In this document: positions 34,174-37,704 of the stretch, in pieces
How the letters are laid out: every line of letters begins with the position of its first letter
Position numbering within the stretch: the first letter of the stretch is position 1
Translations under genes and position numbers: made by a program
Notes under the pieces: model-generated
The model's database searches: none
What the model saw: the letters and a program-made list of their open reading frames with translations, nothing else
What the model was told of the DNA's origin: nothing
NCBI RefSeq assembly: GCF_030064675.1
Contig: NZ_CP116413.1
Coordinates: forward strand, 2,822,001 to 2,886,000
From: Crossiella sp. CA-258035
GTDB lineage: Bacteria; Actinomycetota; Actinomycetes; Mycobacteriales; Pseudonocardiaceae
Reading direction: 5' to 3'
DNA: 64,000 nucleotides

Positions 34174-34950
34174 GTGGACCTGTCCCTAGCTGGCCGAGTA
34201 GTCCTGATCACCGGCGGAGTGCGCGGTGTCGGCGCCGGAATAACCCGAGCGTTCCTGTCCGCGGGAGCCCAGGTGGTCACCTGCGCCCGCCGCCCACCCG
34301 ATCGGCCGATCCAGGAAGCGGGCCGGACACCCGAACACCTGCCCTGTGACGTCCGCGACCCAGCCCAGGTGGAGACCCTCATCGACTCCATCACCCGCCA
34401 GCACGGCCGCCTGGACGTCCTGGTCAACAACGCCGGCGGCGCTCCGTTCGCGATGGCCGCGGACGCCTCGCCCCGGTTCCACGCCAAGGTGGTCGAGTTG
34501 AACCTGTTGGCCCCTCTGCTCGTATCCCAGGCCGCCAACCGGGTGATGCAGGATCAGGACGGTGGGGGCACGATCGTGATGGTGAGCAGCGTCAGCGGCA
34601 GGCGAGCCAGCCCCGGAACAGCGGCCTACGGCGCGGCGAAGGCAGGCATCGACAACCTCACCGCCACCCTGGCCGTCGAGTGGGCCCCCAAGGTCAGGGT
34701 GAACGCCCTGGCCGTCGGCATGGTCCGCACCGAGCTGTCCCACCTGCACTACGGCGACGAGGCCGGTATCGCCGCCGTCGGCCGCACAGTGCCGCTGGGC
34801 CGTCTGGCCGACCCAGCGGAAATCGGTTCCTGCGCGGTATTCCTGGCCTCCCCCCTGGCGTCCTACGTCAGCGGCGCTACGCTCCCGGTGCACGGCGGAG
34901 GTGAGTCCCCGGCCTTCCTGTCGGCAAGCACCTCCCGGGAGGTTCCATGA
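34174..34950 (+). CDS. SDR of sterol ring C/D catabolism (Rv3549c-like)
   Basis: 258 residues from the GTG at 34174 after CCCGGAGG. Cofactor loop TGGVRGVGAG at about 13-22, NNAGGAP near 85, VSSVSGRR near 137-144 with the catalytic Ser, and YGAAKAG near 153-159. In M. tuberculosis a homologue sits beside echA20 in the KstR2 regulon; the specific hydroxyl it oxidises is not established from sequence. The stop overlaps the next start by four bases (ATGA). Confidence 0.85.
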   Translation: MDLSLAGRVVLITGGVRGVGAGITRAFLSAGAQVVTCARRPPDRPIQEAGRTPEHLPCDVRDPAQVETLIDSITRQHGRLDVLVNNAGGAPFAMAADASPRFHAKVVELNLLAPLLVSQAANRVMQDQDGGGTIVMVSSVSGRRASPGTAAYGAAKAGIDNLTATLAVEWAPKVRVNALAVGMVRTELSHLHYGDEAGIAAVGRTVPLGRLADPAEIGSCAVFLASPLASYVSGATLPVHGGGESPAFLSASTSREVP

Positions 34951-35855
34951 CCCCGCTGTGCCACAACCGCGTCGTCATCGTCACCGGCGCGGGCAGAGGG
35001 CTCGGCCGAGCGCATGCCCTGGCCTTCGCCCAGGCAGGAGCCAGGGTCGTGGTCAACGACGCCGGCGTGACCCTCAACGGCCTGGGCGCCAACACCGGCC
35101 CAGCCCACCAGGTGGTCAAGGAGATCACCGCCATGGGCGGCCAAGCGGTGGCCAACACCGAGGACATCGCCGACTGGCAAGGCGCCCTGCGCCTCATCCG
35201 CGCCGCCGTGGAATCCTTCGGCCAACTGGACGTCCTGGTGAACAACGCGGGCTTCCTACGAGACCGAATGCTGGTCAACATGGAAGAACACGAGTGGGAC
35301 GCGGTGATCCGAGTCCACCTCAAAGGCCACATGGCCCCCCTGCGCCACGCCGCCGCCTACTGGCGCTCCGAACACCGAGCAGGCCGACCCATCGCCGCCA
35401 GGGTCATCAACACCAGTTCCGGCGCAGGTTTACTGGGCAGCGTCGGCCAGGGCAACTACTCGGCCGCCAAGGCGGGCATCGCGGGCCTCACCACGGTCGC
35501 GGCAGCGGAACTGGCCCGGTACGGGGTGACGGTGAACGCGATCGCCCCCGCCGCGAGGACCCGGATGACGGAACTGGCCTTCGCGGAAACCATGGCCGCG
35601 CCAACGGAAGCGGAGTTCGACGCGATGGCACCGGAGAACGTGTCACCGCTGGTGGTGTGGCTGGGGAGCGAGGCGTCGGGGGAGGTGACGGGCCGGATGT
35701 TCGAGGTGGAGGGCGGCCGGATCGGGGTCGCGGACGGGTGGCGGCACGGACCGTTCATCGACCGGGGCTCGCGGTGGCCGGTGGAGGAAGTGGGGGAGGC
35801 GGTGCAGCGACTGTTGGCGGCGAGTCCCGCGCCCGCGCCGGTTTATGGGACTTGA
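34947..35855 (+). CDS. SDR / hydroxyacyl-CoA dehydrogenase-like (Rv3548c-like)
   Basis: 302 residues, ATG overlapping the upstream stop. It is longer than a classical SDR and has the peroxisomal multifunctional-enzyme style: TGAGRGLGRAHALAFA at 13-28, VVVNDAG with following insertion, NNAGFLRDRMLVNMEEHEWD near 97-116, INTSSGAGLLGSVGQGNYSAAKAG near 150-173. The C-terminal extension (WRHGPFIDRGSRWPVEEV) matches this subclass. It resembles Rv3548c and the 17-beta-HSD-type Rv3502c. It is the last gene before the mirror-image structured elements. Confidence 0.87.
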   Translation: MTPLCHNRVVIVTGAGRGLGRAHALAFAQAGARVVVNDAGVTLNGLGANTGPAHQVVKEITAMGGQAVANTEDIADWQGALRLIRAAVESFGQLDVLVNNAGFLRDRMLVNMEEHEWDAVIRVHLKGHMAPLRHAAAYWRSEHRAGRPIAARVINTSSGAGLLGSVGQGNYSAAKAGIAGLTTVAAAELARYGVTVNAIAPAARTRMTELAFAETMAAPTEAEFDAMAPENVSPLVVWLGSEASGEVTGRMFEVEGGRIGVADGWRHGPFIDRGSRWPVEEVGEAVQRLLAASPAPAPVYGT

Positions 35856-35957
35856 ACCGGCACGGCGACGGCTAAGGCGACAGCCGCAACAACGACCACG
35901 ACCGCAGGGCGAAGCCCGCGAACCAGCAGCCGGGGTGGCTTTTCAAACGTCCACCGA

Positions 35958-36119
35958 GTCTTGAGGTTCCCCATGCCCGTCAACCTGGAGAGATCACACC
36001 GCATCCCAGCCCACGGACGTTCACAGCAACCGCCGCCAAGGCCACGCAACGCGAGGGCGGCCGTGGGCTGGGATGTGGTTTGATTTCGGAGGGTTGACGG
36101 GCATGGGGAACCTCAAGAC
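35958..36119 (+). ncRNA. Structured element A in the 3' region of the SDR operon
   Basis: A nested, almost continuous palindrome. Outer arms 35958-35985 and 36092-36119 are perfect complements over 28 bases. Inner arms 35993-36016 and 36061-36084 pair at 22 of 24. The apical part, 36017-36060, holds ACGTTCACAG, CCGCCGCCAAGGCC and a closing GGCGG that can pair with CCGCC. Element B (36333-36482, opposite strand) has the same conserved single-stranded words and the same stems built from different bases. No protein frame is plausible. It lies about 100 bases after the SDR stop, in sense orientation. Confidence 0.6.
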
Positions 36120-36163
36120 CTGCCTGCGTCTCTGCTTTTGATTTCCCCCCCATGCTTTGATTC

Positions 36164-36240
36164 CTGCCCGTCCGGCGAGGACGCTCTTGATCTTTCTTTT
36201 CAACCCGAAGATCAAAAGAATGTCCTCGCCGGACGGGCAG
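36164..36240. terminator. Long central hairpin between the mirror elements
   Basis: Arms 36164-36182 and 36222-36240 are perfect complements over 19 bases, and an inner TTGATCTT/AAGATCAA pair extends the stem; T-rich stretches lie in and near it. It sits between elements A and B, at the meeting point of convergent transcription, and is a good candidate for a bidirectional terminator. Confidence 0.6.
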
Positions 36241-36332
36241 ACCACCGGAGGGTGGGACAAGTCAAAAGCCGGAGATGAGCAGGTTGCGGGGCGGGGCAGG
36301 CTGCCGACTCAAGACCCAGCGTGCTCGCGACC

Positions 36333-36482
36333 CTCTCGTCTTCTCCGCACGACCTTCCGACAGCGAACCACATCCCACCGAGCAGCCGCCGTCACGTTCC
36401 GAGGCTTTGGCGGCGGCGCCTGTGAGCGTCTGCTCGGCGGGATGCGGTGCGCGGTCTCCAGGCCGTACGGAGAAGACGAGAG
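36333..36482 (-). ncRNA. Structured element B in the 3' region of fadA5
   Basis: Outer arms 36333-36347 and 36468-36482 are perfect complements over 15 bases. Inner arms 36366-36385 and 36430-36448 pair nearly throughout. Read on the minus strand it shares with element A the words CCTGGAGA, ACCGCATCCC, ACG-Y-TCACAG, CCGCCGCCAA-R-GCC and GGGATGTGGTT, while the distal stem (GCCGAGCAG with CTGCTCGGT) and outer stem are unrelated in sequence to those of A. It begins about 35 bases after the fadA5 stop, in sense orientation. Confidence 0.6.
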
Positions 36483-36518
36483 GCCCGCTTTGTGGGTTTT
36501 CACCCCGAGCTTGTTCGG

Positions 36519-37704
<1,186 letters not shown>

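Follow-up and report, generated by a model that had tools for sequence, protein, structure and literature searches.

The region analysed here lies in a Crossiella genome of 9.17 Mb (G000), of which a stretch of 64,000 nucleotides is called the window below. Between a gene encoding an SDR oxidoreductase (34947-35855; 490 bits against a cut-off of 373) and a gene encoding a steroid 3-ketoacyl-CoA thiolase (36519-37697; 592.7 against a cut-off of 515 bits), a composite repeat of about 590 bp occupies positions 35919-36505 of the plus strand (the boundaries are approximate and are based on 13 G000 copies that align over this span). The composite consists of two inverted outer hairpins, A and B, and a central palindrome, M. 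Hairpin module A (35958-36119, plus strand) has a predicted folding energy of −126.7 kcal/mol (z −12.9) and module B (36332-36483, minus strand) one of −125.8 kcal/mol (z −12.1), and none of the 200 shuffles folded as well in either case. The preliminary description of this locus had presented A and B as long structured hairpins that share inner words in identical order, which was borne out; they are 75% complementary to each other across 111 nt. It had, however, treated them as two elements, while they are both ends of one composite with M (36134-36270, not assigned to a strand) as a third palindrome between them. The outer stem of A is formed by 28 perfect pairs, as had been reported, between the 5′ arm at 35958-35985, whose inner part is termed a, and the 3′ arm a′ at 36092-36119 (both on the plus strand), but the outer stem of B comprises 16 bp and not 15. 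The distal variable stems were found where they had been placed, with 36008-36016 (5′ side) paired with 36061-36069 (3′ side) on the plus strand in A, where two block alleles occur among the G000 copies, and 36430-36438 (5′ side) paired with 36377-36385 (3′ side) on the minus strand in B. Both Crossiella modules have a 3x3 GGA/GGA loop within their paired arms. The central palindrome contains the inverted repeats I4 and I5 and two M1 words arranged tail to tail. The M1 of unit A (36164-36182, plus strand) is composed of CTGCCC and the small hairpin GTCC-GGCGA-GGAC followed by a T-rich tract, and the M1 of unit B lies at 36222-36240 on the minus strand; the word matches themselves span 36164-36180 (plus strand) and 36224-36240 (minus strand). 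The 5′ arm a of each hairpin recurs in weakened form immediately before M1, as a segment termed a″. In unit A this partial second copy is at 36148-36165 (plus strand) and pairs better with its own a′ than with the a′ of other types, and in unit B it is at 36239-36258 (minus strand), a weak case where the own a′ ranks 6 of 13.

Both A and B turned out to be dispersed repeats, which contradicts the earlier view that they are not a recently copied repeat. Element A by itself matches many places in G000, where B-type hairpins follow about 400 bp downstream on the other strand. Many homologues with the loop words were found, which the preliminary description had named as support. A covariance model built from 47 hairpins gave 82 matches in G000, of which 44 are hairpins and the remaining 38 are hairpins of the same set read on the opposite strand. 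At least 13 A-M-B composites, including one (L035) truncated in B, and further partial forms are present in this genome, and several of the copy numbers obtained by sequence searches, that of the A-M-B composites included, are lower bounds. The outer stem of A is nearly invariant across the 13 copies, whereas its distal stem varies in the form of block alleles. A further module, C, has an unrelated outer stem and similar inner words, and forms C-M-B composites; the giant hairpins of the whole family are approximately 105-190 nt long. With 44 hairpins across the genome, the proposed link of the elements to sterol genes could not be maintained. The adjoining gene on the B side is a sterol gene as had been stated, encoding the steroid thiolase, but the SDR gene on the A side received no sterol label in the same assignment, and nothing suggests a special link between the repeat and the genes flanking it in the window. 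The interpretation as two independent sterol-linked RNAs was rejected because of the dispersed copies.

With dnaA placed at position 1, two stretches of G000, 0.50-3.25 Mb and 6.0-7.25 Mb, contain all 44 hairpins. Provided that the terminus is situated about midway, the orientation in which A or C comes first seems to depend on the replichore (21 versus 4 by hand count), and the trend is weaker in G001 (about 24 versus 16); the GC skew at 20 sampled places was too noisy to locate the terminus. In the draft genome G004, several contigs stop where the element match ends (L074, L075, L082, and L085), as expected if the repeats break short-read assemblies.

A unit of the family can be described as a giant hairpin, a spacer, and the word M1, CTGCCCNKCCGGCGAGG, which in other genera appears as CTGCCC and a small hairpin of the form NKCC-GGCGA-GGMN. 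Most of the copies inspected have a T-rich tract after the M1 hairpin, but the aligned G115 copies do not. The composites are mostly two units joined tail to tail. Crossiella and Actinosynnema are members of Pseudonocardiaceae, and M1 was present in 238 of the 390 genomes of this family, while a control with the reversed word gave at most two occurrences in any genome. M1 occurred at least 10 times in 28 of the 390 genomes, with the highest numbers in G001 (103) and G115 (100), and the number can vary sharply within a genus group, as in five Crossiella-group genomes with 103, 49, 37, 15, and 2 words. Many single occurrences are coding: inspection of 30 M1 loci by eye placed 12 in a putative dnaE (the peptide TGCPSGEV at these 12 loci is presumably part of dnaE), while a giant hairpin accompanied M1 at 10 loci, M1 stood alone at five, and three were ambiguous. 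Since 10 of the 30 inspected loci had a giant hairpin, M1 in low copy number was rejected as proof of the element. Giant hairpin and M1 occurred together in five genus groups, g1 (Crossiella), g21 (with Actinosynnema), g31, g45, and g42, a tally that excludes g16 and g26, whose M1 carriers lay outside the hairpin inspection. A pattern scan of genome contigs yielded 52 stretches, 47 of which belonged to Crossiella or Actinosynnema; the other five were lone hits in unrelated MAGs and were treated as chance, about four being expected by estimate. In the predicted folds of L133, L139, L228, L256, L264, L271, and L280, each arm bears a small side hairpin, giving a cross-shaped junction that is missing from those of L132, L259, L275, L279, and L318.

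At three loci (L272, L267, and L268) an a-like word directly precedes M1 and there is no giant hairpin; in these other genera, such words may be solo remnants or units of a simpler kind. At L161 and other Actinosynnema loci, the left flank contains short tandem repeats (CTCGCRGGCCGACCGC), and simple repeats rich in pyrimidines, varying among the copies, follow M1. Searches of plasmid and phage collections, where close relatives may be left out, found no match to the element, and the exact sequence ACCTGCCCNTCCGGCGAGGA was not found in viral contigs, among which closely related records may likewise be left out; a phage or plasmid origin was rejected for want of any match in plasmids, phages, and viral contigs. 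No prior description of the family was found in the literature searched, the coverage of which largely leaves out subscription journals, and the repeat family is apparently new to the literature.

The surroundings of the units were determined with a purpose-made, GC3-based gene caller instead of the annotation. Among 138 clusters located between called genes, 72 were in convergent, 59 in tandem, and seven in divergent gaps, compared with 65, 210, and 71, respectively, among 346 background gene pairs (enrichment in convergent gaps, Fisher p = 1e-12), and six further clusters had no assignable neighbours. The same 138 clusters comprised 47 tail-to-tail, four head-to-head, and 87 single arrangements. 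Single units between tandem genes were in sense orientation in 16 cases and antisense in 15, and a sense 3′-UTR role was rejected on this ratio. Hence the units avoid promoters and have no orientation with respect to the genes.

Conservation of the fold was followed in an alignment (A2) of 47 hairpins from G000, G004, G001, and G003, which were chosen by hand among the matches listed of 235 pattern hits (215 of them distinct, with reverse readings and chance hits among them). In A2, 99.6% of the cells were paired compared with 80.3% in shuffles (reached by 0 of 500) and 37-47% in slid controls, while the measure "further pair types" was reached by 101 of the 500 shuffles. Changes on both sides were observed in 27 of the 36 pairs, a number that counts types and not events, because 12 of the 36 belong to outer stems without homology between A, B, and C. 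Changes on both sides of the stems, as claimed previously, were thus observed, but, given the exchange of hairpins described below, the differences between copies do not all represent independent compensatory mutations. A more telling test was the comparison of G.U and A.C combinations, for which the pairs were picked by geometry and the middle helix of B was partly missed. The G.U:A.C ratio was 68:1 cells (12:1 columns) in A, 156:11 (15:1) in B, 4:2 (2:2) in C, 99:0 (5:0) in Actinosynnema, and 3:5 (3:3) in G115, and the cells with other mismatches numbered 125, 42, 33, 38, and 67 in the same order. Wobble thus lies on one strand in three of the five sets (A, B, and Actinosynnema, with 32 G.U versus two A.C columns), and the asymmetry is absent from C and G115; all five sets together gave 37:7 columns (p = 5e-6, with columns treated as independent and shared ancestry ignored). 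Selection on one strand predicts an excess of G.U, and strand-blind repair of palindromes does not, thus the wobble excess speaks for selection on the fold of a single strand, either RNA or single-stranded DNA, although a strand-biased C-to-T mutation process may be an alternative source of the asymmetry. The one-strand wobble in three sets is predicted neither by a simple terminator nor by a double-stranded DNA palindrome, and in this respect the statement that the structures are no simple terminators gained support. The proposal of a selected folded RNA or single-stranded DNA likewise agrees with the conservation of the fold and with the one-strand signal in three of the five sets, but an RNA class specifically is one of two equal fits, as single-stranded DNA fits as well as RNA as the working molecule.

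Further information on the architecture of the unit was obtained from a″. In 13 unit types, a″ paired with its own a′ at a mean of −22.7 kcal/mol compared with −14.3 kcal/mol with the a′ of other types, a difference reached in 0 of 20000 permutations, which are not fully independent because the unit types are related; reduction to 10 distinct classes likewise gave 0 of 20000. For G080, G226, and G095 the automatic step gave no outer stem, hence they were left out of the 13-type test, and their addition by hand resulted in −22.6 versus −15.1 kcal/mol for 16 types (0/20000). The own a′ ranked first in 10 of these 16 types, while it ranked 6, 3, and 9 in G080, G226, and G095, respectively, and 6 for B of the window. 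The differences between a and a″ leave 39 G.U, 20 A.C, and 48 other mismatches. Hence a′ could swap between two partners, a and a″. Just as well, these two can be regarded as direct repeats, and module A appears to have been lost from G003 by a deletion between repeats of this kind.

Comparison of related genomes was used to follow the elements at individual sites, where G004 was called the same species as G000, and G003 is a close relative of G001. Fourteen G001 sites, taken from loci without a known partner in G003, were sought in the latter genome; three were not located, and all of the 11 that were found (flanks 87-98% identical) lacked both the element and M1. Four other G001 loci (L098, L101, L108, and L113) carry the element at the matching G003 site. 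The differences represent gain in G001 or loss in G003, their direction being unpolarised. The site of L104 is occupied in G000 and G001 and empty in G003, thus at least some of the differences may be losses or repeat insertions. No target-site duplication was readable at the empty sites, which lie in or beside other short repeats, and the ends are not sharply defined. Within the species, 19 of 25 G000 loci had flank matches (92-99% identity) beside elements among the 20 G004 loci examined, giving no sign of recent movement there. In contrast to the sites, the hairpins themselves do not follow orthology: between G000 and G004, the orthologous hairpin was the strict best match in 0 of 10 cases for A, 0 of 9 for B (with one tie), and 0 of 3 for C, and some orthologous pairs have different distal-stem blocks. 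Since the ortholog was never the strict best match (0/22), we concluded that hairpins are exchanged between sites. The left module at an orthologous site can also differ between species (C in L036, A in L104), and the B copies bear inner words typical of the species. In the Crossiella genomes G001 and G003, intergenic regions are filled with arrays of another repeat of about 21 nt (GTTGGCCGTTGT.GTACGG, with variants including GTTGGCCCAAGT.GTACGCC), which flank the elements and persist at most of the empty sites examined; they were located in L112 (2868-3540), L098 (2430-2560 and 3350-3480), and L308.

The search for a mobiliser covered two protein families, Y1_Tnp (PF01797) and RVT_1. Y1_Tnp was absent from G000, G004, and G002. 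Of 18 further genomes, one, G208, has it and itself lacks M1, and 11 of the 17 without it are high-copy. A single match, interrupted by a stop, occurs in G001, the genome richest in M1 words, and three stretches match in G003, but M1 or a long hairpin was absent within the 3-kb Y1 loci of G001, G003, and G208. As Y1 is missing from most high-copy genomes and its loci lack the element, a RAYT/REP system was rejected as the general means of mobilisation. RVT_1 occurred in 14 of 23 genomes and was absent from the high-copy genomes G024, G066, G174, G129, G260, and G257; four reverse transcriptase loci were examined, and M1 or a long hairpin was absent from them. A reverse transcriptase was rejected as the mobiliser because RVT_1 does not track copy number. 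Two reverse transcriptase matches in G001 (G001:C1:6225418 and 7606826) with identical scores and open frames of 589 aa are probably copies of one gene.

As to known families, Rfam gave no match at the gathering threshold in the entire window, which agrees with the earlier opinion that no named RNA family fits. In nine loci compared with Rfam, MIR8788 alone appeared, on both strands of A, and a known Rfam family was rejected because these scores (54.8 and 48.3) are far below the gathering value of 124 and concern both strands. The elements resemble the structured RNAs of Rfam in their covarying stems and conserved unpaired words, yet a gathering-level match is lacking. An intrinsic terminator is a short G+C-rich hairpin with a T run directly after it; the M1 hairpin has a T-rich tract behind it in most of the inspected copies and in none of those from G115. 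In description alone, the family is like the MITE-like BOX and RUP repeats, being composed of small dispersed non-coding repeats, and BOX repeats are modular; in the present family no target-site duplication with a terminal repeat was readable. The resemblance to REP, REPIN, and BIME elements extends to high-copy, mainly intergenic palindromes, inverted doublets, mosaic combinations, and a single-strand hairpin with conserved mismatches (PMC8266576, PMC3116915, PMC2817692), and the repeats of the present family are indeed extragenic and often inverted doublets. REPs are palindromes of 20-50 nt with a tetranucleotide, mostly GTAG, in front of them, and a conserved bulge is required for TnpA_REP activity on E. 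coli REPs (PMC8266576), REPINs consist of two REPs in inverted arrangement and have been proposed to move with RAYTs (PMC3116915), and CGTC repeats seem to have no dedicated transposase (PMC3733652). Unlike REPs, the hairpins of the present family are several times longer (about 105-190 versus 20-50 nt) and are followed by M1 and a second copy of the 5′ arm, no GTAG was noticed by eye at the hairpin foot in the copies inspected, and the Y1 transposase is missing from most high-copy genomes.

Considering these results, we lean towards a new REP/BIME-like family of non-autonomous structured repeats in Pseudonocardiaceae with a putative mobiliser. The folded sense strand, as single-stranded DNA or an RNA copy, would be the substrate of a putative host or element enzyme that copies or moves the unit, much as REP transposases read a hairpin plus bulge. 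Insertion or survival would favour the 3′ ends of genes because promoters are avoided, gene conversion would then homogenise the copies within a genome, and the a/a′/a″ layout might let the 3′ arm swap its strong partner for the weak one during copying or movement. It is conceivable, though doubtful, that the units form a class of mobile elements of their own, moving via a folded single strand with a giant and in some genera cross-shaped hairpin, an a/a′/a″ strand-exchange switch, and an enzyme that is neither Y1 nor RVT_1. That a RAYT (TnpA_REP) moves these units as ordinary REP/REPIN or BIME elements appears very improbable: their intergenic location, structure, inverted doublets, mosaic modules, and conserved stem mismatches match what PMC8266576 describes, and Y1_Tnp does occur in G001 and G003, but the length of the hairpins, the unnoticed GTAG, the absence of Y1_Tnp from G000, G004, and 11 other high-copy genomes, and Y1 loci devoid of M1 and long hairpins, with an internal stop in the G001 match, all argue to the contrary.

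The units might instead be cis-acting RNAs at gene 3′ ends (terminators, attenuators, or mRNA stabilisers), whose hairpin, a/a′/a″ switch, and M1 hairpin with T-rich tract act in the transcript and which were spread by recombination because they are useful. Enrichment at convergent gene ends, one-strand wobble in three of five sets, the T-rich tract after M1 in most copies inspected, and the fit of a″ to its own a′ (0/20000 permutations) are in keeping with such a role, which we nevertheless regard as unlikely, as single units in tandem gaps are antisense as often as sense (15:16), the aligned G115 copies lack the T-rich tract, and a close relative has no element at 11 of the sites. Passive palindromes, in which template switching and gene conversion maintain the likeness of the arms and the fold is not under selection, would account for the exchange of hairpin sequences between sites, for long and near-perfect arms, and for C and G115, which have no wobble asymmetry. 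However, repair acting on mutations alone gives no reason for more G.U than A.C (32:2 columns in A, B, and Actinosynnema), and it would be expected to remove the 3x3 GGA/GGA loop, still present in Crossiella A and B; this makes a purely passive origin distinctly improbable.

The hairpins also hold a warning, namely that covariation among dispersed copies can stem from the exchange of whole hairpins and not just from compensatory mutation; the strand test of G.U versus A.C helps to separate the two. The results point to an apparently new repeat family in several genera of antibiotic-producing actinomycetes, some genomes of which contain tens of these large units. If the fold is a substrate of transposition, a new mobilising enzyme awaits discovery, and if the units act as RNA, these bacteria contain a large structured RNA repeat that has so far been overlooked.
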